Shown here piece by piece: positions 15,850-52,576 of a stretch of 60,063 nt of DNA. The DNA is from Arenimonas sp. SCN 70-307. GTDB lineage: Bacteria; Pseudomonadota; Gammaproteobacteria; Xanthomonadales; Xanthomonadaceae. The translations under genes and the position numbers were made by a program. Below the pieces are notes generated by a model that had not been told where the DNA came from, made no database searches, and saw nothing but the letters and a program-made list of their open reading frames with translations. The stretch covers positions 1-60,063 of the forward strand of contig NZ_MEDO01000015.1 of NCBI RefSeq assembly GCF_001724815.1. The letters are read 5' to 3'. The number at the start of each line of letters is the position of its first letter. The stretch's first letter is position 1.

Positions 15850-17303
15850 GCCAACGCTTCCGCGCCATCCAGCGCATCCTGGGCGTCATCATCGTCCTGT
15901 CCTCGCTGACCAAGCTGCCGCCCGGTTTCCTGGCCCTGGCCTGGGGCGAGAAGGGCACGCCGGGGGTGTTCTTCGGCAGCTTCCTCGCCAGCGCGCTGGT
16001 GGGCTTCTTCCTGTGGCTGCCGGTGCGCAGCGTCAACTACGACCTGCGCCTGCGCGACGGCTTCCTCATCGTCACGCTCACCTGGGTCTTCGCCAGCCTG
16101 GTCTCGGCGCTGCCCTTCGTGCACGGCCCGCCGAACCTGAGCTACACCGACGCCATCTTCGAGGCCACCTCGGGCCTGACGACCACCGGCGCCACGGTCA
16201 TCACCGGCCTCGACGCCCTGCCGCCGAGCGTGCTGTTCTACCGGCAGCTGCTGCAGTTCCTCGGCGGCATGGGCATCGTGATCCTGGCGGTGGCCATCCT
16301 GCCGATGCTCAAGATCGGCGGCACCCAGCTCTTCCGAGCCGAAAGCACCGGCCCGACCAAGGACACCAAGCTCACCCCGCGCATCGCCGAGACGGCCAAG
16401 GCGCTGTGGGCGGTGTACTTCGGCCTGACCATCCTGTGCGCGGGCTCGTTCTGGGTGGCCGGCATGGGCCTGTTCGACGCCATCGGCCACGCCATGTCCA
16501 CGGTGTCCACCGGCGGCTTCTCGACCCACGACGCCGGCTTCGCGCACTGGGACAGCGGCCTGCTCGAGTGGATCGCCATCGTCTTCATGATGCTCGGCGG
16601 CATCAACTTCGGCCTGCACTTCGTCGCCTGGCGCCGCGCGTCGCTCTCCGTCTACGGCACCGACTCCGAGCTCAGGGCCTTCCTGCGCATCACCGTGGGC
16701 ATCAGCCTGGTCGTGGGCCTTTCGCTCTGGGTCGCCGGGACCTACCAGGGCTTCGGCGAATCGCTGCGCACGGCCACCTTCCAAGTCGTCTCGATCATCA
16801 CCACCACGGGCTTCGTGATGCCGGGCTTCGACCAGTGGCCCGGCGCGCTGCCCTTCATCGTCGTCACCGTCGGCGTCATCGGCGGCTGCTCGGGCTCCAC
16901 CGTCGGCGGCCTGAAGGTGGCTCGCGTGGTGATGGTGGTGCGCCAGGGCTACCGCGAGATCAAGCAGCTGGTGCACCCCAAGGCCCAGTTCCTGGTGAAG
17001 ATGGGCGGCCGGCGCGTGTCCGAATCGGTGGTGCTGTCGGTCAGCGGCTTCATCGCCATCTGGATGCTGTGCTTCATGGTGATGGTGATTGGGTTCAACG
17101 CCACCGGGCTCGACCTGGCCTCGGCCTACGGCGCGGCGGTGGCCATGCTGGCCAACTCCGGCCCCGGCCTGGGCAGCACCGCCTATACCTTCGCCGGCGC
17201 CGGCGACGCCGCGGTCTGGCTCGGCACCGTGGGCATGGTGCTCGGCCGCCTGGAGGTGTTCTCGGTGCTGGTGCTGCTTACGCCGCAGTTCTGGCGGGAG
17301 TAG
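15846..17303 (+). CDS. trkH: Trk potassium transporter membrane subunit TrkH
   Basis: 485 residues starting at the GTG at 15846, which overlaps the trkA stop codon (GTGA). Inner-membrane K+ channel of the TrkH/KtrB superfamily with four pore repeats; filter-like glycine segments include [30 protein letters not shown] and ANSGPGLGS. With TrkA it forms the constitutive potassium uptake system. The 3' end overlaps the convergent PH-domain gene by 26 bases. Confidence 0.96.
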
Positions 17304-29554: not shown

Positions 29555-29638
29555 TGTAGGAGCGCCTTCAGGCGCGAATGTTTGTTTTTGCCTTTGCCTT
29601 CGGCAAAGAAGGGATTCGCGCCTGAAGGCGCTCCTACA
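29555..29638. repeat. GTAGGAGCG-type palindrome with perfect 25-bp arms
   Basis: Left arm 29555-29579 (TGTAGGAGCGCCTTCAGG then CGCGAAT) and right arm 29614-29638 are exact reverse complements. The 34-base centre holds a second hairpin, CTTTGCC-TTC-GGCAAAG (29592-29608). It lies between the convergent 3' ends of hemC and the soeC-like gene. It resembles REP/BIME elements; no matching transposase is in the window. Confidence 0.85.
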
Positions 29639-37995: not shown

Positions 37996-38024
37996 ACCAG
38001 GTTGGATAAAATCAACCTGGTTCG
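37993..38024. repeat. Family B palindrome, short form
   Basis: GAACCAGGTTG (37994-38004), loop GATAAAAT, CAACCTGGTTC (38013-38023): perfect 11-bp arms. The 22 bases at 38003-38024 recur at 52556-52577. The upstream patatin TGA stop codon overlaps the left arm (G-TGA-ACC). It lies between convergent genes (patatin and lipocalin). Confidence 0.85.
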
Positions 38025-40572: not shown

Positions 40573-41055
40573 ATGCCTGCCGAATCCCGCCTGCGCGACG
40601 CCCGCCCCGACGACCTGCCCGCCCTGCTCGCGCTGGAGGCCGGCTTCCCGGGCGACCGGCTCTCGGCCCGCCAGTTCCGCCACCACCTGGCCAACCCGCG
40701 GGCCCGGCTGCGGGTGGCCGTGGCCGGCGGCCGGCTGCTGGGCTACCACCTGCTGCTGTTCCGGAAGGGCAGCGCCTGGGCCCGTCTTTATTCGATCGCC
40801 GTGGACCCGGCCGCCCGCGGCCAGGGCCTGGGCCGCCGACTGCTGGCCGACGCCGGGCGCCAGGCCCGCGCCGCCGGCCGCACCGGCCTGCGCCTCGAAG
40901 TCCGCCAGGACAACCACGCCGCCGCCGCCCTCTACGAAGCCGCCGGCTACCGCCGCACCGCCACGCTGCCGGCCTACTACCAAGACGGCACCAACGGCTG
41001 GCGCTACGAGAAAGGGGGTCAGGTTCACTTACCCGGGCGCCGAGCGCCCGGGTAA
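40573..41055 (+). CDS. GNAT family N-acetyltransferase with repeat-derived tail
   Basis: 160 residues. GNAT fold: RLYSIAVDPAARGQGLGRRL (about 75-94) contains the acetyl-CoA binding R-G-Q-G-L-G loop, and EVRQDNHAAAALYEAAGY is the typical last helix-strand region of RimI-like enzymes. The last 14 or so residues (GGQVHLPGRRAPG) are encoded by a family A palindrome whose right arm supplies the TAA stop (41053-41055). The native protein probably ended near WRYEKG. It is divergent from the RimK-like ligase. Substrate unknown. Confidence 0.88.
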   Translation: MPAESRLRDARPDDLPALLALEAGFPGDRLSARQFRHHLANPRARLRVAVAGGRLLGYHLLLFRKGSAWARLYSIAVDPAARGQGLGRRLLADAGRQARAAGRTGLRLEVRQDNHAAAALYEAAGYRRTATLPAYYQDGTNGWRYEKGGQVHLPGRRAPG

Positions 41056-41075
41056 GTGAACCTGACCCCCTTTCT
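41009..41075. repeat. Family A palindrome with 32-bp arms
   Basis: Left arm 41009-41040 and right arm 41044-41075 are exact reverse complements around loop CGA. The outer half reads AGAAAGGGGGTCAGGTTCAC and the inner half TTACCCGGGCGC. Coding of the GNAT gene runs through the left arm and stops in the right arm. It lies between same-direction genes (GNAT and S9 peptidase). Confidence 0.9.
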
Positions 41076-41158
41076 TGGGGCATGACGAAAGGCCTACGGC
41101 GGGTTAACAAGGGGCCGTGCTAGCGTCCGGGGCTTGCACCACACCGGGGAACCACCCA

Positions 41159-43273
41159 ATGCGCCTGACCACCCTCGCCTGGCTCACCGCCGGCGCGCTC
41201 ACCCTCTCCCTGCCCGCCACGGGCCAGCAGCCGACCATGCACACGCTTCCCGACGACCCCTACCTCTGGCTTGAAGACGTCGAGGGCCAGGAAGCGCTGG
41301 ACTGGGTGCGTGCGCGCAACGCCGTCTCCAAGGAGGCCCTGGCCGGCGACCCGCGCTTCGAACAGGTGCGCACCAGCCTGCTCGAGATCCTCGACTCCAA
41401 CGCCCGCATTCCCTACGTGGGCAAGATGGGCGACTACTACTACAACTTCTGGCGCGACCGCGACAATCCGCAGGGCGTCTGGCGCCGCACCACGCTCGAG
41501 GAGTACCGCAAGGACCAGCCCCGGTGGGAGGTCCTGCTCGACATCGACGCGCTCGGCAAGGCCGAGGGCGTGAACTGGGTCTGGGCCGGCGCCGAGTGCC
41601 TGCGCCCCGAGTACGACCGCTGCCTGATCGACCTCAGCCGCGGCGGCGCCGACGCCACCGTGACCCGCGAGTTCGACGTTTCCGACAAGGCCTTCGTCGA
41701 GGGCGGCTTCAGCCGGCCCGAGGCCAAGGGCCAGGTGAACTGGATCGACATCGACACCGTCTACGTGAGCACCGATTTCGGCGACGGTTCGATGACCGAC
41801 TCGGGCTACCCGCGCATCGCCAAGGAATGGAAGCGCGGTACGCCGCTGACGGCGGCCCGCACGATCTTCGAGGGCCAGGCCAGCGACATCTCGGTCGGCG
41901 CCTACCGCGACGACACCCCGGGCTACGAGCGCGACTTCGTCTACCGCGGCCTGACCTTCTACACCAACGAGCTCTACCTGCGCGGCGAGGGCGACAAGCT
42001 CACCAAGCTCGAGCTGCCCGACGGTGCCCAGAAGGGCGTGTTCCGCGAGTGGCTGAGCGTCGAGCTGCGCCAGCCCTGGACCGTGGGCGGCAAGGAGCAC
42101 CCGGCCGGCTCGCTGCTGGCCATCAAGCTCGACGCCTTCCTGGCCGGCGACCGCGACTTCGACGTGCTGTTCGAGCCCACCGCCAACACCTCGCTGGCCA
42201 GCTCGGGCGCGACCAAGGACTACTACTTCATCAACGTCCTCGAGGACGTCAAGAACCGCATCTACGTGCTCACCCCGGGCGAGGATGGCTGGAAGAAGGA
42301 GCCGCTGGTGGGCGCGCCGCAGTTCGGCACCGTCGGCATCAGCGCGGTGGACGCCGATGAGTCCAACGCCTACTTCATGACGGTGGCCGATTACCTGACC
42401 CCGACCTCGCTGCTGATCGGCGAGATCGGCAAGCAGCCCGAGACGCTCAAGCAGCTGCCGGCCTTCTTCGACGCCTCGCCCTACCGCATCGAGCAGCACT
42501 TCGCGACCAGCAAGGACGGCACCAAGGTTCCTTACTTCATGGTCTCGCGCAAGGACCTGCGGCTCGACGGCGACAACCCGACCCTGCTCTACGGCTACGG
42601 CGGCTTCGAGGTCTCGCTCACCCCGGGTTATTCGGCGGGCGTGGGCAAGGCCTGGCTGTCCGACGGCGGCGTGTACGTGGTGGCCAACATCCGTGGCGGC
42701 GGCGAGTACGGCCCGCGCTGGCACCAGGCCGCGCTCAAGGAAAACCGCAACAAGGCCTACGAGGACTTCGCGGCCGTGGCCGAGGACCTGATCGCCCGCA
42801 AGGTCACCCAGCCCAGGCGCCTGGGCATCCAGGGCGGCAGCAACGGCGGCCTGCTGATGGGCAACATGACGGTGATGTACCCGGAGCTGTTCGGCGCCGT
42901 CGTCTGCCAGGTGCCGCTGCTCGACATGCAGCGCTACCACAAGCTGCTGGCCGGCGCGTCCTGGATGGCCGAGTACGGCGACCCGGACAAGCCGGAGGAG
43001 TGGGCCTTCCTGCGCAAGTTCTCGCCGTACCAGAACGTCAGCAAGGACGTGAAGTACCCGCCGGTGCTGTTCACCACCTCCACCCGCGACGACCGCGTCC
43101 ACCCGGGCCACGCCCGCAAGATGATGGCGCTGATGGAGGCGCAGGGCCACGACGTCACCTACTACGAGAACATCGAGGGTGGCCACGGCGGCGCCGCCAA
43201 CAACGCCCAGTCGGCCTACATGGGCGCGCTGGCCTACACCTTCCTCAAGCAGAAGCTCTTCGAGGGCAAGTGA
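41159..43273 (+). CDS. Secreted prolyl oligopeptidase family peptidase (S9)
   Basis: 704 residues from the ATG at 41159 with signal peptide MRLTTLAWLTAGALTLSLPA. Beta-propeller domain (about 90-440) after an N-terminal helix region (DDPYLWLEDVEGQEALDWV, an S9A hallmark), then the alpha/beta hydrolase domain with nucleophile S561 in GGSNGG, aspartate in TSTRDDRVHPGH and histidine in EGGHGG. Should cleave short peptides, probably after proline, in the periplasm. The next gene, two bases further on, encodes a second S9 peptidase, so the two are co-transcribed. Confidence 0.95.
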   Translation: MRLTTLAWLTAGALTLSLPATGQQPTMHTLPDDPYLWLEDVEGQEALDWVRARNAVSKEALAGDPRFEQVRTSLLEILDSNARIPYVGKMGDYYYNFWRDRDNPQGVWRRTTLEEYRKDQPRWEVLLDIDALGKAEGVNWVWAGAECLRPEYDRCLIDLSRGGADATVTREFDVSDKAFVEGGFSRPEAKGQVNWIDIDTVYVSTDFGDGSMTDSGYPRIAKEWKRGTPLTAARTIFEGQASDISVGAYRDDTPGYERDFVYRGLTFYTNELYLRGEGDKLTKLELPDGAQKGVFREWLSVELRQPWTVGGKEHPAGSLLAIKLDAFLAGDRDFDVLFEPTANTSLASSGATKDYYFINVLEDVKNRIYVLTPGEDGWKKEPLVGAPQFGTVGISAVDADESNAYFMTVADYLTPTSLLIGEIGKQPETLKQLPAFFDASPYRIEQHFATSKDGTKVPYFMVSRKDLRLDGDNPTLLYGYGGFEVSLTPGYSAGVGKAWLSDGGVYVVANIRGGGEYGPRWHQAALKENRNKAYEDFAAVAEDLIARKVTQPRRLGIQGGSNGGLLMGNMTVMYPELFGAVVCQVPLLDMQRYHKLLAGASWMAEYGDPDKPEEWAFLRKFSPYQNVSKDVKYPPVLFTTSTRDDRVHPGHARKMMALMEAQGHDVTYYENIEGGHGGAANNAQSAYMGALAYTFLKQKLFEGK

Positions 43274-43275
43274 CC

Positions 43276-45459
43276 ATGAAACTGCGCCTGCTTCCCCTGA
43301 CCGCGGCCCTGCTGGCCGTTTCCCTCGCCGGCTGCGACCGCCAGGCCCCGGCCGATGCGCCGGCGGCCAGCGCCCAGCCCGCGTCCACCTCGCGCCTGGG
43401 CGACCTCGCCGGCGCGCCGGTGGCCGAAAAGCGCCCGTACCAGGTGGTGGCGCCGCACGGCGCCTCGCGCGAGGACGAGTACTACTGGCTGCGCGACGAC
43501 ACCCGCAAGGACGAGGCCGTGCTGGCCTACCTCAACGCCGAGAACGCCTACGCCGACCAGGTGATGGGCCCGCTCAAGGCGACGCAGGACGCGCTCTACG
43601 AGGAGCTCGTGGGCCGGGTGAAGCAGGACGACTCGAGCGTGCCCTACTTCGAGGACGGCTACTGGTACTACACGCGCTTCGAGACCGGCAAGGAGTACCC
43701 CATCCACGCCCGCCGCGAGGGCACGATGGAGGCGCCCGAGCAGGTGATGTTCGACGTCAACCAGATGGCCGAGGGCAAGAACTTCTTCCAGCTCGGCAGC
43801 ATCGAGGTCAGCCCCGACGGCCGCCTGGCCGCGTTCGCCTCCGACGAGGTCGGCCGCCGCCAGATGGTCATCCAGGTCAAGGACCTGGCCACCGGCGAGG
43901 TGCTGGCCGACCGCATCACCGGCGCGTCGAACAGCCTGATGTGGGGCAACGACAACCGCACGCTCTACTACATCGAGAACGACCCGACCACGCTGCTCAC
44001 CAAGCGCGTCAAGGCGCACGTGCTGGGCACGCCGGTCGAAGCCGACAGGCTGGTGTACGAAGAGAAGGACGACACCTTCTACATGGGCATGGGCCGCACC
44101 CGCTCCGACGAGTACCTGTGCATCGGCGTGAGCAGCACGGTGTCGTCGGAGATGCGCTGCACCGACGCCGACGCGCCGGGCGAGTTCAAGGTGCTGGCGC
44201 CGCGCGAGCGCGACTTCGAGTACCAGGCCGACCACCTCAACGGCCGCTGGGTGATCAACACCAACTGGGACGCCACCAACTTCCGCGTCATGAGCCTGGC
44301 CGACGGCCAGGCCTGGGGCGACCGCAAGCTCTGGCAGGAGATGATCCCGCACTCGGAGGAGGTGCTGATCTCGGGCGTCACGCTGTTCGACGGCTTCATC
44401 GCCGTGTCCGAGCGCAGCGGCGGCCTGCAGCGCATCCGCATCCGCGACTGGGACGGCCAGCGCGACGAGTTCGTCAAGGCCGACGAAAGCGCCTACGCGA
44501 TGGGCATGTCGGTCAACGCCGAGCCGGGCACCGACTGGCTGCGCTACAGCTACACCTCGCTGACCACGCCGGCGACGACCTACGAGCTCAACACCGCCAC
44601 CGGCGAGCGCCGCATGCTCAAGGAGCAGCCGGTGCTGGGCGGCTTCGACAAGAACAACTACGTCACCGAGCGCCTGTGGGCCACGGCCCGCGACGGCACG
44701 AAGGTGCCGGTGTCGGTGCTCTACCGCAAGGGCTTCGCCAAGGACGGCACGGCCGCGCTGTACCAGTACAGCTACGGCTCCTACGGCTCGAGCTCGGACC
44801 CGGGCTTCAACGCCAACGTCATCAGCCTGGTCGATCGCGGCGCGGTGTACGCGGTGGCGCACATCCGCGGCGGCCAGGAGATGGGTCGCCAGTGGTACGA
44901 CGACGGCAAGCTGCTCAACAAGATCAACACCTTCACCGACTTCATCGACGTCACCGACTTCCTGGTGGCCGAGGGCTACGCGGCCCCGGGCCGCGTGGCG
45001 GCGATGGGCGGCAGCGCCGGCGGCCTGCTGATGGGCGCGGTGGCCAACATGGCGCCCGAGAAGTACGCGGCCATGGTGGCGCACGTGCCCTTCGTGGACG
45101 TGGTGACGACGATGCTCGACGAGTCGATCCCGCTCACCACCAACGAGTTCGACGAGTGGGGCAACCCGAAGGACCCGGTGTACTACGACTACATGCTGTC
45201 GTACTCGCCCTACGACCAGGTCAAGGCCCAGGCCTACCCGCCGCTGCTGGTGACCACGGGCCTGTGGGACAGCCAGGTGCAGTACTTCGAGCCGGCCAAG
45301 TGGGTCGCCCGCCTGCGCGCCACCAAGACCGACAACCAGCCGCTGCTGCTGCGCACGAACATGGAAGCCGGCCACGGCGGCAAGTCCGGCCGCTTCCAGC
45401 GCTACCGCGAACGCGCCGAAGAATACGCCTTCGTCCTCCACCACCTCGGCCTGCTCTGA
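43276..45459 (+). CDS. ptrB: Oligopeptidase B-type S9 peptidase, lipoprotein
   Basis: 727 residues. Begins with a lipoprotein signal (AVSLAGC, cysteine 18), so this copy is membrane-anchored outside the cytoplasm, unlike the cytoplasmic E. coli enzyme. The mature part starts ASREDEYYWLRDDTRKD, the typical oligopeptidase B opening. Propeller (about 130-450), then the catalytic domain with S580 in GGSAGG, aspartate near LWDSQVQYFEP and histidine in EAGHGGKSG. Expected to cleave short peptides after Arg/Lys. It follows the other S9 peptidase by two bases. A family A palindrome begins 5 bases after its stop. Confidence 0.93.
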   Translation: MKLRLLPLTAALLAVSLAGCDRQAPADAPAASAQPASTSRLGDLAGAPVAEKRPYQVVAPHGASREDEYYWLRDDTRKDEAVLAYLNAENAYADQVMGPLKATQDALYEELVGRVKQDDSSVPYFEDGYWYYTRFETGKEYPIHARREGTMEAPEQVMFDVNQMAEGKNFFQLGSIEVSPDGRLAAFASDEVGRRQMVIQVKDLATGEVLADRITGASNSLMWGNDNRTLYYIENDPTTLLTKRVKAHVLGTPVEADRLVYEEKDDTFYMGMGRTRSDEYLCIGVSSTVSSEMRCTDADAPGEFKVLAPRERDFEYQADHLNGRWVINTNWDATNFRVMSLADGQAWGDRKLWQEMIPHSEEVLISGVTLFDGFIAVSERSGGLQRIRIRDWDGQRDEFVKADESAYAMGMSVNAEPGTDWLRYSYTSLTTPATTYELNTATGERRMLKEQPVLGGFDKNNYVTERLWATARDGTKVPVSVLYRKGFAKDGTAALYQYSYGSYGSSSDPGFNANVISLVDRGAVYAVAHIRGGQEMGRQWYDDGKLLNKINTFTDFIDVTDFLVAEGYAAPGRVAAMGGSAGGLLMGAVANMAPEKYAAMVAHVPFVDVVTTMLDESIPLTTNEFDEWGNPKDPVYYDYMLSYSPYDQVKAQAYPPLLVTTGLWDSQVQYFEPAKWVARLRATKTDNQPLLLRTNMEAGHGGKSGRFQRYRERAEEYAFVLHHLGLL

Positions 45460-45464
45460 AACAA

Positions 45465-45513
45465 AGAAAGGGGGTCAGGTTCACTTCCCGGAAGTGAACC
45501 TGACCCCCTTTCT
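45465..45513. repeat. Family A palindrome, compact form
   Basis: 24-bp arms (45465-45488 and 45490-45513) around a single C: outer AGAAAGGGGGTCAGGTTCAC and inner TTCC. It lies between the convergent 3' ends of the oligopeptidase B gene and the 45520 gene; the latter's stop is 6 bases away. Confidence 0.9.
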
Positions 45514-45519
45514 CGTTCC

Positions 45520-46185
45520 TCACCAGCCGGCTTGCTGGAGGAGGAGTTCGGTGCGGGGGTCGGCGGGGGTGGCGACCAGGCCGCCCTGCGGGTTGAGCGC
45601 GATGTCGAAGCGGGCGCCGTCGATCATCGGCAGGTAGGCGGCGCTGCCCCAGCGGGCGTCGGCGATGGGCAGGCCGGCCAGCCAGCGCTGGCGGAATTCC
45701 CAGAAATCCCAGCCTTCGCGCAGGTCGTGCACGCTGCGTTGGGCCGTGCGCTCCTGCGCCGGCTCGGCGTAGCGGCCCGAGAGCCGCTCGAAGCGATAGA
45801 CCGGCGGCAGGCCCGCCAGCTGGCCGCCCAGGGTCCAGCGGATCACCCGGGCGTCGAGCTGCCACTGGTCGCCGCGCAGTTCCAGCACCCGCGGCGGGTC
45901 TTCGCCCAGCACCACCGTGGCCTCGAAGTGCTGGCTGCCCAGCTGGCGCAGGGCGATCGAAGCCACCGGCACGTCGGCCAGCAGCCACTGGTACTGCCGC
46001 AGCAGCGCGCCCGTGCCCGCCAGCACCAGGGCCAGGCCCAGCACCAGCGCGCCGAGCAGGCGCCCGGACCAGCCGCGGCGCGGCTGCGGGCGCAGCGTGC
46101 GCTTGCGGCGCCGGGGCAACCAGGGCAGCAGCCCCAGCACGGCCAGCACCAGCGCGGCGGTGAACAATCCGCCCGAAAGCGACAT
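45520..46185 (-). CDS. Uncharacterised inner-membrane protein
   Basis: 221 residues from the ATG at 46185, preferred over the ATG at 46197 because GGAGG sits 4 bases before it. Two membrane helices (about 4-23 and 42-62) joined by a basic loop (RRRKRTLRPQPRRG), then a 155-residue soluble domain with several tryptophans (GDQWQLDARVIRW, DLREGWDFWEFRQRWL). Homologues in xanthomonads are often labelled as multidrug proteins without evidence; I see no transporter motif. Its -10 box overlaps that of lptM on the other strand. Confidence 0.7.
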   Translation of the reverse strand: MSLSGGLFTAALVLAVLGLLPWLPRRRKRTLRPQPRRGWSGRLLGALVLGLALVLAGTGALLRQYQWLLADVPVASIALRQLGSQHFEATVVLGEDPPRVLELRGDQWQLDARVIRWTLGGQLAGLPPVYRFERLSGRYAEPAQERTAQRSVHDLREGWDFWEFRQRWLAGLPIADARWGSAAYLPMIDGARFDIALNPQGGLVATPADPRTELLLQQAGW

Positions 46186-46217
46186 CCCGGCCTCCATTCG
46201 CTGCAGTCCAGCCCCGG

Positions 46218-46225
46218 ACTATACT
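46218..46225. promoter_or_regulatory. Overlapping divergent -10 boxes of lptM and the 45520 gene
   Basis: ACTATACT reads as TATACT on the plus strand (46220-46225), six bases before the lptM ATG, and as TATAGT on the minus strand (46223-46218), toward the membrane protein gene. The two polymerases would compete for one site. -35 boxes are weak. Confidence 0.55.
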
Positions 46226-46231
46226 CGCCGC

Positions 46232-46345
46232 ATGAAAACCTCTCGCGTGCTGATGCTCCTGCTCGCCCTCGTCCTGGTCGCCGCCTGCGGCAACAAGGGC
46301 GACCTGGTGCGCCCGGCCCCGGCCACCGCCACCGCCGCGCCATGA
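46232..46345 (+). CDS. lptM: LPS translocon maturation lipoprotein LptM (YifL)
   Basis: 37 residues. Lipoprotein signal with a lipobox ending at the lipidated cysteine (LVAAC), then the short conserved stretch GNKGDLVRP and a Pro/Ala tail. LptM helps LptD oxidation and assembly at the outer membrane in E. coli. The gene lies immediately upstream of dapF with a 4-base ATGA overlap, the same order as yifL-dapF in E. coli, which supports the call for such a short gene. The transcript is predicted to be leaderless. Confidence 0.88.
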   Translation: MKTSRVLMLLLALVLVAACGNKGDLVRPAPATATAAP

Positions 46346-47196
46346 GCCCGGGGCGGGCCCTGCGCTTTTCCAAGATGCACGGCGCAGGCAATGATTTCGT
46401 CGTGCTCGACCTGCGCGGCGGCCGCCCCGCGCCCGCGCCCGGGCTGGCGCGCCGGCTCGCCGACCGCCACCAGGGCGTGGGTTGCGACCAGCTGCTGACC
46501 ATCGAGGACAGCGCCGACCCCGCCTGCCTGGCGCGCTACCGCATCTGGAACGCGGACGGCTCGGCCGCCAACCAGTGCGGCAACGGTGCGCGCTGCGTCG
46601 CCGCCTGGCTGCGCCGCGACGGCGCCGCCGCCACGCCGCGCTTCCGGCTCGACAGCCCCGCTGGCCCCGTGCAGGCCGAGGCCCTGGGCGAAGGCCGCTA
46701 CGCCGTCGGCATGGGCCGCCCGCGCCTGGCGCCGGCGGAAATTCCCTTCCTGGCCGCCGGCGACGCCACCGAGCACCGCCTCGCGCTGGCTGAAGGCGAG
46801 GTGGCCTTCGGCGTCGTCTCGATGGGCAACCCGCATGCCGTCGTCGAAGTGGCCGATGTCGCCGCCGCGCCCGTGGCCACGCTCGGCCCGGCGCTGCAGG
46901 CCCGGCCTGAGTTCCCCGAAGGCGTGAACGTGGGCTTCGCCCAGGTGCTCGCGCCCGACCGCATCCGCCTGCGCGTGTTCGAGCGCGGCGCCGGCGAAAC
47001 CCTGGCCTGCGGCAGCGGCGCCTGCGCCGCCGTGGTGGCGCTGGTGCGCCGCGGCCGCCTCGCGCGCCATGCCTTCGTCGAGCTGCCCGGCGGCACGCTC
47101 GAAATCACCTGGCCCGCCGACGACGCACCCGTCGTCATGGCCGGCCCCACCGCCTTCGTGTTCGAAGGCGAACTGCTGCTGGAGCAACCCGAATGA
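46342..47196 (+). CDS. dapF: Diaminopimelate epimerase
   Basis: 284 residues. Converts LL- to meso-diaminopimelate for lysine and peptidoglycan. Start RFSKMHGAGNDFVVLD is diagnostic; the two active cysteines are C79 (NQCGNGARC) and C223 (LACGSGACAA). It overlaps lptM at its start and the DUF484 gene at its stop by 4 bases each, making the first three genes of lptM-dapF-DUF484-xerC translationally coupled. Confidence 0.98.
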   Translation: MSPGRALRFSKMHGAGNDFVVLDLRGGRPAPAPGLARRLADRHQGVGCDQLLTIEDSADPACLARYRIWNADGSAANQCGNGARCVAAWLRRDGAAATPRFRLDSPAGPVQAEALGEGRYAVGMGRPRLAPAEIPFLAAGDATEHRLALAEGEVAFGVVSMGNPHAVVEVADVAAAPVATLGPALQARPEFPEGVNVGFAQVLAPDRIRLRVFERGAGETLACGSGACAAVVALVRRGRLARHAFVELPGGTLEITWPADDAPVVMAGPTAFVFEGELLLEQPE

Positions 47197-47870
47197 TGGA
47201 CGAGAAGAGCGAGCGCCTGGGCGCCCATGAAGTCGCGGCCTTCCTGCGACGCCACCCGAAGTTCCTGGCGCAGTTCCCGGACCTGGCGGTGTCGCTGGTG
47301 GTGCCCAAGGAAGAAGGGCAGGCGGCCTCGCTGGCCAGCTACCAGCTCGACGTGCTGCGCGACAAGAACCGCGAGCTCACCCGTCGCCTGAACGAGCTCT
47401 ACGCCAACGCGCAGGAGAACGAGCGCCTGGCCGTGCGCACGCACCAGTTGAGCCTGGCGCTGATGCGCGCCAACGGCCCCGCCGAAACGCTGCGCACGAT
47501 GGTGGCGGTGCTGGGCGAGGACTTCCGCGGCGAGCTGGTGCGCGTGGTGCTGTTCGAGGCCGTGCCGGGCCTGGAGGCCGACTGGCTGCAGGTGGTCGCG
47601 CAGGGCGACGCCGCGCTGGCGCCCTTCCGCGACTTCATGGCCGCCGGCGAGCCGCTCACCGGCCGCCTCAACCAGGACAAGCTGGCGCTGCTGTTCGGCC
47701 CGCGCGCCGCCGAGGCCGCCTCGGCCGTGCTGCTGCCGCTGCCCGGCGTGGGCATGCTGGCGGTGGGCAGTTCCGACGCCAACCGCTTCTTCCCGGGCAT
47801 GGGCACGCTGTTCCTGCGCCTGATGTCCGAGGCCCTGGTGACCGCGCTGGGCCGCGCGCCGCGCGACTGA
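47193..47870 (+). CDS. DUF484 family protein
   Basis: 225 residues. N-terminal VAAFLRRHPKFLAQFPDLAV, a coiled-coil-prone stretch (about 45-75, LRDKNRELTRRLNELYANAQ) and a GAF-like C-terminal domain (about 85-220) match DUF484 (YigA). The family has a conserved place between dapF and xerC, as here, but no established function. It overlaps dapF by 4 bases and lies 2 bases before xerC. Confidence 0.93.
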   Translation: MMDEKSERLGAHEVAAFLRRHPKFLAQFPDLAVSLVVPKEEGQAASLASYQLDVLRDKNRELTRRLNELYANAQENERLAVRTHQLSLALMRANGPAETLRTMVAVLGEDFRGELVRVVLFEAVPGLEADWLQVVAQGDAALAPFRDFMAAGEPLTGRLNQDKLALLFGPRAAEAASAVLLPLPGVGMLAVGSSDANRFFPGMGTLFLRLMSEALVTALGRAPRD

Positions 47871-47872
47871 GC

Positions 47873-48778
47873 ATGACCGGCGCCGCGCCGCTGCAGCCGG
47901 AGGTCGACGCCTTCCTGGCGTGGCTGGCGGTCGAGCGCCGGATGTCGCCGCACACGATTTCGGCCTATCGCCGCGACCTGGCCGACCTGGCCGGCTGGAT
48001 GCGCGATTCCGGGCTGGAGCAGTGGACGCGCCTGCGCCAGGAAGCGCTGCGCACCTACGTCGCCGGCGCGCACCGGCGCGGGCTGTCGGGCAAGAGCCTG
48101 CAGCGTCGCTTGTCGGCCATCCGCAGCTTCTTCGGCTGGCTGGGCCGCGAGCACGGCAGCGAACTCAACCCGGCGCTCGGCCTGCGCGCGCCCAAGGCGC
48201 CGCGCAAGCTGCCGCAGGTGCTCGATGCCGACGAGGCCGGGCGCCTGGTCGAGGTGCCCACCGATGCCCCGCTGGGCCTGCGCGACCGGGCCATGCTCGA
48301 GCTGTTCTATTCCTCCGGCCTGCGCCTGAGCGAGCTGTGCGGCCTGCGCTGGGGCGCGCTCGACCTGGCCGAGGGCCTGGTGACGGTGGTGGGCAAGGGC
48401 GGCAAGACCCGCCTGGTGCCGGTGGGCAGCCACGCCCGCACGGCGCTGGCGGCGTGGCGCGACGAGAGCAAACCTGCTGCGGATTCGCCGGTGTTCCCCG
48501 GCCGCAGCGGCGGGCCGATCAGCCCGCGCACGGTGCAGGCGCGGCTGCGCGAGCTGGCCATGCGCCAGGGCCTGTTCAAGCGCGTGCATCCGCACCTGCT
48601 GCGGCACAGCTTCGCCAGCCACGTGCTCGAGTCCAGCGGCGACCTGCGCGGTGTGCAGGAACTGCTGGGCCACGCCGACATCGCCACCACCCAGATCTAC
48701 ACCCACCTCGACTTCCAGCACCTGGCCAAGGTGTACGACGCCGCACACCCCCGCGCCCGCCGCAAAAAACCCGCGTGA
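47873..48778 (+). CDS. xerC: Tyrosine recombinase XerC
   Basis: 301 residues. Resolves chromosome dimers at dif together with XerD. N-terminal core-binding SAM-like domain (about 8-95), then the catalytic domain with R141, K165, H241, R244, H267 and nucleophile Y276 (TTQIYTHLD). Position after dapF-DUF484 separates it from xerD and integrases. Its TGA stop codon (48776-48778) is the outermost part of a family A palindrome. Confidence 0.97.
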   Translation: MTGAAPLQPEVDAFLAWLAVERRMSPHTISAYRRDLADLAGWMRDSGLEQWTRLRQEALRTYVAGAHRRGLSGKSLQRRLSAIRSFFGWLGREHGSELNPALGLRAPKAPRKLPQVLDADEAGRLVEVPTDAPLGLRDRAMLELFYSSGLRLSELCGLRWGALDLAEGLVTVVGKGGKTRLVPVGSHARTALAAWRDESKPAADSPVFPGRSGGPISPRTVQARLRELAMRQGLFKRVHPHLLRHSFASHVLESSGDLRGVQELLGHADIATTQIYTHLDFQHLAKVYDAAHPRARRKKPA

Positions 48779-48873
48779 CAAGAAAGGGGGTCAGGTTCAC
48801 TTATCGGGGATGTGATTCGCGAATTCCCCGGGGAGCGTCTCCCGATAAGTGAACCTGACCCCCTTTCTTGTCA
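48776..48873. repeat. Family A palindrome with 33-bp arms and 32-base centre
   Basis: Left arm 48776-48808 and right arm 48841-48873 are exact reverse complements; they start TGACAAGAAAGGGGGTCAGG and end in ATCGGG inward. The left arm begins with the xerC stop codon TGA. The centre holds smaller palindromes (ATTCGCGAAT at 48815). It separates xerC from hslV. Confidence 0.9.
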
Positions 48874-48932
48874 CCCCTTGGCTTGTCGCCAGGCCGCCCC
48901 CAGAACGGTAGGACGCCCGCAATGGAGTGCCC

Positions 48933-49472
48933 ATGGACCCCCAAACCTTCCACGCCACCACCATCCTGTCGGTCCGCCGCCACGGCAAGGTCGTCGTCGC
49001 CGGCGACGGCCAGGTCACGCTGGGCCACACGGTGATGAAGGGCAATGCCCGCAAGGTGCGCAAGCTGGCCGGCGGCAAGGTGATCGCCGGCTTCGCCGGC
49101 GCCGCGGCCGATGCCTTCACGCTGCAGGAGCTGTTCGAATCCAAGCTCGAGAAGCACGGCGGCCAGCTCGTGCGCGCCGCCGTCGAGATGGCGCGCGAAT
49201 GGCGCACCGACCGCCGCTTCGGCAAGCTCGAGGCGCTGCTGGCGGTGGCCGATGCGCAGACCTCGCTGGTCATTTCCGGCACCGGCGACGTGATCGAGCC
49301 CGACGACGGCATCATCGCCATCGGCTCCGGCGGCCCCTACGCCCTGGCCGCGGCCCGCGCGCTGATGCAGCACAGCGAACTCGACGCCCGCGCCATCGCC
49401 GAGGCAGCGCTCAACGTCGCCGGCGACATCTGCATCTACACCAACCGCAACCTCGTCATCGAGGAACTGTGA
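48933..49472 (+). CDS. hslV: ATP-dependent protease subunit HslV
   Basis: 179 residues from the ATG at 48933 with GGAG 5 bases upstream. Proteasome beta-like threonine peptidase: after a short propeptide (MDPQTFHA) the mature chain begins at the Thr-Thr pair ([19 protein letters not shown]). [21 protein letters not shown]-type patterns are present, read here as [20 protein letters not shown]. It forms the peptidase rings of HslVU. Its stop overlaps the hslU ATG by one base (TGATG). No convincing heat-shock promoter was identified. Confidence 0.98.
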
Positions 49473-50812: not shown

Positions 50813-51049
50813 CCAAGCTGAACCACGTGAACCAGGTTCATTTTACGGCGCGAAATGCCCCGGAATGCCGGTGTATCCCGGGCCGTAAAATGAACCTGGT
50901 TCACTGGCTTGTCAGGTTTTCCGCGCGGCGCCGGTCTGTTGATCCAAGCCCCCTTGGAGCGACCGACCGCCGTGCCCGCCGCCCTCGCCACCGCCACCCC
51001 GACGCCGCGCACCGCGCGGCCGCCTGAGTCACGGATCCCCGCCGAGCCC
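50813..51049. other. Longest gene-free stretch in the window
   Basis: 237 bases between hslU and the ECF sigma gene. It holds a family B palindrome (50827-50904) and then about 145 bases of GC-rich sequence in which I find no clear promoter, hairpin or small gene. The sigma factor frame stays open upstream to 50909, but that part shows no protein-like pattern. Confidence 0.6.
50827..50904. repeat. Family B palindrome with 23-bp arms
   Basis: Left arm 50827-50849 (GTGAACCAGGTTCATTTT then ACGGC) and right arm 50882-50904 are exact reverse complements around a 32-base centre with a weaker inner pairing (CCCCGG..CCGGTG region). It begins 15 bases after the hslU stop codon. Confidence 0.88.
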
Positions 51050-52149: not shown

Positions 52150-52500
52150 ATGAGCCCTCGCCCCACCGACCTCGTCCTGCACCGCGCCTCGCACGTCCTC
52201 GAAGTGGCCTTCGAGGACGGCCGGCGCTTCCGGCTGCCCTGCGAATACCTGCGGGTCGAATCGCCCAGCGCCGAAGTGCAGGGCCACGGCCCGGGCCAGA
52301 AGGTGCTGGTGGCCGGCAAGCGCGACGTGAACATCCGCGCCATCGACCCGGTGGGCCACTACGCCGTACTGCTGCGCTTCGACGACGGCCACGAAAGCGG
52401 CCTGTTCAGCTGGAGCCTGCTGGCCACGCTGGGCGAGGAATACGACACGCGCTGGGCCGCCTACCTCGCCGCCCTCGAAGCCGCCGGCCAAAGCCGGTGA
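52150..52500 (+). CDS. DUF971 domain protein (GBBH-like N-terminal fold)
   Basis: 116 residues, one domain. RPTDLVLHRASHVLEVAFED, RFRLPCEYLRVESPSAEVQG, NIRAIDPVGHYAVLLRFDDG and SGLFSWSLLATLGEEY are the conserved blocks of DUF971, the fold also found at the N-terminus of gamma-butyrobetaine hydroxylase and in iron-sulfur assembly-related proteins. It commonly neighbours ubiE and hslVU in proteobacteria, as here. Function not established. Its TGA stop (52498-52500) overlaps the left arm of a family B palindrome. Confidence 0.92.
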   Translation: MSPRPTDLVLHRASHVLEVAFEDGRRFRLPCEYLRVESPSAEVQGHGPGQKVLVAGKRDVNIRAIDPVGHYAVLLRFDDGHESGLFSWSLLATLGEEYDTRWAAYLAALEAAGQSR

Positions 52501-52576
52501 ACCAGGTTGATTTTATCCAACCAGGTTCATTTTCGGGCTGGCAAATGAACCTGGTTGGATAAAATCAACCTGGTTC
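52499..52576. repeat. Family B palindrome, long form with 34-bp arms
   Basis: Left arm 52499-52532 and right arm 52543-52576 are exact reverse complements around a 10-base loop. Each arm holds two copies of the ACCAGGTT core separated by GATTTTATCCA, so the element looks like a nested duplication of the short form at 37994. It lies between the convergent DUF971 and arsC genes. Confidence 0.9.

Follow-up and report, generated by a model that had tools for sequence, protein, structure and literature searches.

Palindromes with shared arms and free centres, linked to a RAYT-like gene, in Arenimonas sp. SCN 70-307

Introduction

Two described systems come closest to the repeats reported here. In REPINs (REP doublets forming hairpins; REP, repetitive extragenic palindrome), as portrayed in the available excerpt of Bertels & Rainey 2011 (PMC3116915), two inverted conserved ends enclose a variable, paired spacer with compensatory changes, and a cognate REP-associated tyrosine transposase (RAYT) serves the element; the spacers vary, and how long they are and whether they can form a hairpin appear to be important. 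In the TIRYT, or TIRtron, arrangement, a RAYT-like Y1 gene is flanked by inverted repeats that are unrelated to GTAG REPs and carry the motif GGGGWSAS (PMC3733652), and these terminal inverted repeats (TIRs) are scattered in the genome as dimers, to judge from the excerpts of Di Nocera et al. 2013 (PMC3733652) and Quentin et al. 2018 (PMC6006769). TIRYTs probably correspond to subclass 2.1 of the latter paper, whose excerpt reports a C-terminal helix-turn-helix (HTH)-like domain for that subclass. Here we describe family A, a set of palindromes found in a window of 60,063 nucleotides of Arenimonas sp. SCN 70-307 (the whole stretch of DNA analysed; contig NZ_MEDO01000015.1, hereafter C15, positions 1 to 60,063). 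Each consists of a conserved arm of about 22 nt, AGAAA[C/G]GGGGTCAGGTTCACTT, its inverted copy and a centre of its own. In the reading that we judge probable, the unit consists of the two arms, which are placed round or exchanged on existing hairpins in situ and kept symmetric by copying; arms and centre also move as a whole.

Other contigs of this genome are cited as C4, C10, C14 and so on, the genomes of relatives by G-numbers, with G021 the nearest relative among those compared, and stretches of sequence read from either by L-numbers (e.g. L036, L061).

Results

Three perfect palindromes share an arm

A first-pass annotation of the window had singled out three long palindromes with one outer arm and unrelated interiors, and this description holds: the common arm is AGAAAGGGGGTCAGGTTCACTT, the centres are unrelated to one another, and no stem has a mismatch. 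The coordinates given there stand for the first two; the third is one base longer at either end.

41009..41075, no strand: family A palindrome 1; arms 41009-41030 and 41054-41075, unique centre 41031-41053 with a 10-bp inner stem; inverted repeat 41009-41040/41044-41075, stem 32 bp, 3 nt between, 100% complementary
45465..45513, no strand: family A palindrome 2; arms 45465-45486 and 45492-45513, 5-nt centre CCCGG; inverted repeat 45465-45488/45490-45513, stem 24 bp, 1 nt between, 100% complementary
48775..48874, no strand: family A palindrome 3; arms 48781-48802 and 48847-48868, 44-nt centre 48803-48846 with a 6-bp inner stem; outer stem 6 bp beyond the arms; inverted repeat 48775-48808/48841-48874, stem 34 bp, 32 nt between, 100% complementary; located between xerC (47873-48778) and hslV (48927-49472)

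As single-stranded DNA the three fold with energies of -43.9, -27.2 and -44.6 kcal/mol (z-scores -15.4, -10.4 and -13.9), and none of 200 shuffles of any of them was equally stable. A lone family A arm forms no hairpin (0 kcal/mol) and bears no GTAG/GTGG-type tag. The window contains the 15-mer GGGGGTCAGGTTCAC six times without mismatch, every time inside the three palindromes; at up to 3 mismatches there are 12 matches versus 2.04 expected. No known RNA family coincides with the palindromes at Rfam gathering scores, the sole match in the window being one tRNA.

The arm is dispersed in the genome and symmetric within nearly all copies read

The first-pass annotation had proposed a genome-wide search for the arm and for a RAYT gene flanked by it, and both were found. 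In the whole genome (2.93 Mb, 35 contigs, 99.98% complete), GGGGGTCAGGTTCACTT matches at 54 places on the forward and 51 on the reverse strand with up to 2 mismatches, versus 0 and 0 for the reversed control; these matches, with copies in other genomes, rule out a locally confined repeat. Exact arm pairs number 28 with a centre of 0-30 nt and 16 with a centre of 31-60 nt, one triple-arm site entering both counts. The spread is patchy: the exact 16-mer is present in 15 of 61 genomes, this one included, and in 10 of 26 other members of the genus, with at most 15+15 copies there versus 53+49 in SCN 70-307, by far the most among the 61.

The two arms of a copy agree far more often than chance would allow. 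Among 46 palindromes of this genome with paired arms of at most one mismatch in the 15-mer, the base before GGGGTC is C on both sides in 25, G on both sides in 19 and mixed in 2, i.e. the same variant in 44 of 46 against 23.3 expected for independent arms (p<=5e-5). Exact pairing runs on into the centre for a mean of 5.6 bp. The centres themselves measure 5 to 44 nt, with 12 of the 46 at 41-44 nt. When 29 of the 34 long centres listed for the genus were folded one by one (own C5:8213, C10:39884, C14:591037 and C24:34317 and G021 C16:40682 make up the difference), 24 were 41-44 nt long and 17 had an outer stem of 5-6 bp; no common fold was seen among the 29, and a conserved sequence or fold of the long centre was rejected. 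The earlier suggestion that the fold rather than the sequence is preserved is half right: the centre is free, and the sequence of the arm is itself kept and shared.

Family C of G021 (GGGGAC[AG]GGTGCATTT) behaves alike: its variable arm bases agree on both sides in 22 of the 22 palindromes listed, four of these given in part. Palindromes of family A or a variant are found nested in family C palindromes in SCN 70-307 (L073, L074, L065), where the outer C arms are partly lost, and in G021 (L134, L115, L109).

A RAYT-like gene lies between the same arms

The window holds no RAYT gene, as the first-pass annotation had remarked; the four Y1_Tnp genes of this genome lie on contigs C10, C4, C27 and C24, all off C15. 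The one at C10:17382-17708 (247 aa) sits inside nested inverted A arms, at 17219/17243 on the forward and 18039/18063 on the reverse strand, with a C-type then a G-type arm at the left and the mirror image at the right. Its product, with HVH in MENHVHLLV, scores 51.4 bits against PF01797 (cut-off 23) and 65.3 bits against the NCBIfam model REP_Tyr_transpos, below the cut-off of 80; no HTH family was matched at its C-terminus at E<=1 in Pfam. In G021 and G019, too, the same RND-permease gene is followed by a RAYT-like gene with arms; the permease family was assigned on the G021 copy.

Orthologous sites often keep a palindrome while arms or centres vary

We located G021 counterparts for 22 A-arm sites of SCN 70-307, counted apart from the RAYT locus. 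Of these, 15 hold an A- or C-type arm or palindrome in G021: five have an A palindrome, one has a lone A arm, three have A or a variant nested in C, and six have a C-family palindrome. The other 7 hold neither; two of them were re-read, and no A or C arm was found there within 4 mismatches. The G021 stretches were picked around that genome's own arms, so shared sites are over-represented in this count; among the seven sites reached from positions in SCN 70-307, four have an A- or C-type palindrome in G021. For 16 orthologous pairs of centres from this genome and the nearest relative, the true partners are more alike than permuted ones (p<=5e-5), ranking first in 5 and second in 2. The 16 were chosen by hand and comprise 13 of the 14 paired-arm sites (C30:18811 omitted), icmF (with A. 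caeni in place of G021) and two sites in hrpA; at one, C24:33423, SCN 70-307 has the left arm only.

The window copies show the same range. The site of palindrome 1 is empty in the three relatives read (G021, G016, G019). At that of palindrome 2, G021 has the same arms round another, 10-nt centre (TCCCATGGGA), and the arms are absent from G016, G019 and G022. Of the relatives whose sequence could be read to the left and right of the site between xerC and hslV, G021 and G016 show different inverted repeats, G019 has none, and G013 (L084:2351-2475) carries a tandem array of GGGTCAGATCAAA units rather than a palindrome. Elsewhere, C14:591035 shows mixed states among relatives. C18:119325, a single arm next to a tRNA, was discarded as a case of framed host DNA: relatives carry other terminators there, not the same hairpin.

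A host terminator hairpin is naked or framed

Host DNA framed by the arms, a feature that the first-pass annotation had not foreseen, is seen at C24:34315. The gene end there carries a naked GGCCCGC-loop-GCGGGCC hairpin in G003, G004, G011 and G019 (4 of 19 relative loci read, some of them one-sided), and the hairpin is framed by different arms in two other genomes: in SCN 70-307, A arms surround ATGAAAAAGGCCCGC-CGA-GCGGGCCTTTTTCAT, and in G021, C arms surround AACGAAACAGGCCCGC-GAAT-GCGGGCCTGTTTCGTT. Inspection by eye shows other palindromes at a further four of the 19 loci, and at the remainder either none or too little sequence. At the neighbouring C24:33423, SCN 70-307 has a left A arm only, followed by a hairpin, and in G021 a similar hairpin is flanked left and right by C-type arms; the other relatives read lack this hairpin. 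A G022 contig (L169, left end) opens at the C24:34315 site with about 50 C in a row, which is probably an artefact of assembly.

By a coding rule based on GC at third codon positions (GC3), convergent frames flank 17 of the 46 copies, many of them reaching stop codons, and several sites hold some palindrome in more than one species. Both observations would suit host selection, in which the hairpins are kept as bidirectional terminators, compensatory point mutations are selected and the transposase matters little now. We consider this improbable: in-frame intragenic copies cannot be terminators, and the subfamily matching in 44 of 46 copies, with the nested arms round the RAYT gene, points to an element-driven process.

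Such intragenic copies do occur. Under the GC3 rule an open frame spans 6 of the 46 copies; four, with long centres, are clearly read through (icmF, L036; yoaA, L060; two in hrpA, L061), and two short-centre copies (L037; L049 at 1187) also lie within open frames that may be coding. One arm of the in-frame copies encodes a peptide of the RGQVHFS-, GGQVHFS-, RGQVHLS- or RGSGSLS-type, and its partner encodes SEPDP. The scores of HrpA and YoaA reach the respective NCBIfam cut-offs; a piece of IcmF of 588 aa scores 617 bits with NF045497, under the whole-protein cut-off. The two hrpA palindromes (L061:1195-1281 and 2299-2385) lie in frame within one gene; in G021 (L289) other arms stand at both sites, with one left/right mismatch, GGTAC/GGTGC, which may be an intermediate.

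In icmF, different arms frame a similar coding core

The icmF linker was compared in SCN 70-307 and 13 of 80 loci, using 60 mononucleotide shuffles per row and inserts of unequal length; A. maotaiensis and the metagenome-assembled genome (MAG) L229, with short linkers, and more distant loci stand outside this set. The inverted-repeat score is 17-29 in 8 of the 14 loci and 5-10 in the other six, the top shuffled score of any row being 11. The arms are GGGGTCAGGTTCACTT-like in SCN 70-307, A. malthae and MAG C43, GGGTCAGGTACATTT in A. caeni, GTACCAGGTTCATTT in A. metalli, GTACCAGGTACATTT in MAG B101, GAACCAGGTTCATTT in MAG bin78 and GGGGTCAGGGTGCGTTT in MAG M120. Inside them, six of the eight hold a K/G-rich core, GKGKK in SCN 70-307, A. 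caeni and C43 and variants of it in A. metalli, bin78 and B101. The core also occurs without a significant inverted repeat in ULC165 (GKGKK), A. donghaensis (GKGKS), A. terrae (GGKKKG) and, in the DNA, A. daejeonensis, whose icmF (L263) is out of frame past the linker in the record read. Several species thus have a similar coding core within different arms, which is best read as an exchange of arms in place.

SCN 70-307 and A. caeni share the inner stem TTCCCC and an alike core, and show two paired differences in the arms proper. On the left these changes leave the peptide as it is (GQVHFS); on the right they turn SEPDP into NVPDP. The same pattern of silent left and altered right arm separates A. 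metalli from B101 (NEPGT to NVPGT). It is as if one arm had templated the other, and hairpin stems can be created and repaired by template switching, as documented in the excerpt of PMC8794818. We nevertheless regard it as very unlikely that these palindromes arise and persist through template switching during replication alone, with the RAYT a passenger, because that mechanism does not distribute a single 22-nt arm over more than 40 unrelated loci.

Another pair invites a different explanation. A. malthae and MAG B101 (L215, recorded as Rhizobium sp. and very close to A. malthae in icmF) are sisters in the flank tree with support 100/100; this tree leaves out A. daejeonensis because its reading frame is broken, has 6 of 15 inner branches open and groups A. 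composti and M120 weakly with the outgroups. Over 600 nt on either side the two are 97.3 and 98.0% identical, and their inserts are wholly different. Homologous recombination with other strains or species could have swapped whole elements and so mimicked an exchange of arms in place; identity over the 60 nt to the right is only 88.3%, and B101 shares with A. metalli the inner stem TTCCGG and the core start AGAAGAA. However, close to the insert the right flank of B101 does not resemble that of A. metalli (68.3% over 60 nt), and import leaves unexplained why SCN 70-307 and A. caeni share inner stem and core and differ in their arms. We hold allelic import to be unlikely, if less so than the two preceding alternatives.

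Other RAYT-repeat pairs in the same genome

A RAYT gene on the reverse strand at C4:90317-90643, 47% identical to that on C10, is flanked on either side by family B arms, GAACCAGGTT[C/G]ATTTT. Members of this family occur in the window:

50827..50904, no strand: family B palindrome; arm GTGAACCAGGTTCATTTTACGGC; cognate RAYT C4:90317-90643 (reverse strand), flanked by the same kind of arms
52499..52576, no strand: family B palindrome; two nested, slightly different arm units (GAACCAGGTTGATTTTATC, CAACCAGGTTCATTTT), 34-bp stem
38008..38023, reverse strand: solitary family B arm, 1 mismatch

The RAYT at C27:20511-20804 is placed between dimers of a classical GTAG-type REP (TGTAGGAGCGCCTTCAGGCGCGAA; TGTAGGAGCG), and a dimer of that REP (TGTAGGAGCGCCTTCAGGCGCGAAT) occupies 29555-29638 of the window with 25-bp arms and 34 nt between. 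No repeat family stood out in the flanks of the C24 Y1_Tnp gene. The pairings of A with C10, B with C4 and REP with C27 amount to at least three RAYT-repeat pairs in one genome.

Discussion

Based on the above data, we propose that family A consists of non-autonomous, REPIN-like palindromes that would be served by the TIRYT/RAYT HUH transposase encoded at C10:17382-17708. The arm of about 22 nt would be the part recognised by the enzyme, leaving the centre outside the identity of the mobile unit. In single-stranded DNA, the arm pair and the centre may fold into a single hairpin, and new arms could be set around, or swapped on, places that form hairpins, such as intrinsic terminators, older palindromes and tolerated coding linkers; placement or exchange of arms in situ would allow the DNA inside to stay host or earlier DNA. 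A one-sided change might then be copied to the opposite arm across the hairpin, through template switching or strand exchange by the RAYT, and such copying would maintain the complementarity of the two arms and of the bases directly inside them. Whole units also move in some cases. The data establish the arm family, the RAYT gene between its arms, the paired arm variants, the host hairpin in naked and differently framed states and the similar coding core within different arms; the action of the C10 RAYT on the arms, their pairwise movement or exchange in place and the copying step are what we infer. A bolder form of the proposal, that the ends move and the middle stays, competing arm families being repeatedly placed or exchanged in pairs round the same host hairpin or linker such that arms follow the genome and the core follows the locus, is tentative and falls well short of an even chance.

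Several observations weigh against the placing or exchange of arms in situ. C24:34315 is the only site with clear naked and framed states. In 9 of the 16 pairs, both hrpA sites included, the centres rank fourth or lower and look replaced, and the equation of G021 with A. caeni is a guess. In icmF, arms occur without the core in A. malthae (collapsed centre) and M120 (another core), the species lacking arms may be decayed rather than ancestral, A. terrae keeping an arm-like left remnant, and the linker is shorter and devoid of the core in A. oryziterrae, A. maotaiensis and the outgroups. At 41009 and C14:504706, arms and centre are both absent in relatives, as fits insertion of a whole unit; no hairpin exists there in the relatives read, which rules out a pre-existing hairpin as the general rule for the centre, and no target-site duplication was seen by eye at these empty sites. 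No transposition intermediate was seen. Near-copies among the centres of SCN 70-307 are limited to two pairs, C4:45758/83285 and C5:60244/65905, which indicate that whole units do move or duplicate.

The empty sites and the near-copy pairs would be expected from ordinary REPIN-like transposition, in which arm, centre and arm move as one and centres diverge fast, only pairing and length mattering. In line with this view, families A and C both include a class of centres about 39-47 nt long that have no sequence in common, and REPIN spacers are likewise variable with compensatory changes (PMC3116915, excerpt). We place this alternative a little below an even chance. It would require drift to be confined to the centre, since arms are nearly identical and centres unrelated, and it does not account for a host hairpin and a coding core common to species with different arms. 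Exchange and placement of arm pairs accommodates these two cases and, by allowing whole units to move as well, remains the reading that we find probable.

To our knowledge, it is not yet settled how RAYTs spread REP or TIR repeats, given that the enzyme gene remains in place as the short palindromes multiply. If arms exchange round a fixed core, the replicating unit would be the arm pair and not the whole hairpin, compensatory change would be made by copying and not by selection, and there would be a route to rewrite terminators and protein linkers. The Arenimonas genomes offer a natural comparison of a naked terminator, the same one framed by one family and the same one framed by another, and in the in-frame copies in icmF, yoaA and hrpA the reading frame constrains the changes.

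Comparison with known systems

Among described repeats, miniature inverted-repeat transposable elements (MITEs), typically tied to a DDE transposase, resemble family A in being short and in having ends common to a gene-bearing copy. They differ in that family A has an HUH/Y1 enzyme and its centre is not conserved; by eye, no target duplication was noticed at the sites read. The GTAG-type REP at C27 is likewise accompanied by a RAYT and forms inverted dimers; unlike arm A, to which its sequence is unrelated, each REP is self-complementary by eye. With REPINs, family A shares two inverted repeats and a spacer that form a hairpin; however, the A arm neither folds on itself nor carries a GTAG/GTGG-type tag, the two A arms pair fully together, and a host terminator or a coding linker can form the centre.

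In the literature searched, GGGGTCAGGTTCA and AAGTGAACCTGACCCC do not occur, and the 13-mers GGGTCAGGTTCAC and GGGGACAGGTGCA appear in 3 and 2 papers, respectively, that look unrelated by title; among the matches listed, no title deals with arm exchange and no paper contains the word Arenimonas.

The first-pass annotation had named REPs mobilised by RAYTs as the nearest class. A RAYT-linked mobile family is what we find, but TIRYT-type TIR dimers fit better than classical REPs because the lone arm has no hairpin and no GTAG head. As in TIRYTs, the C10 Y1 gene lies between long inverted repeats unrelated to GTAG REPs, the family includes dimers, and GGGGWSAS is present as GGGGTCAG in arm A and as GGGGACAG in arm C. 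The HTH-like domain of subclass 2.1 was not found by Pfam in the C10 protein, and the excerpts of the TIRYT descriptions (PMC3733652, PMC6006769) make no mention of free palindromic centres, host cores, arm exchange or in-frame TIR copies. Within what the excerpt of Di Nocera et al. 2013 describes, family A fits the TIR kind and family B resembles it.

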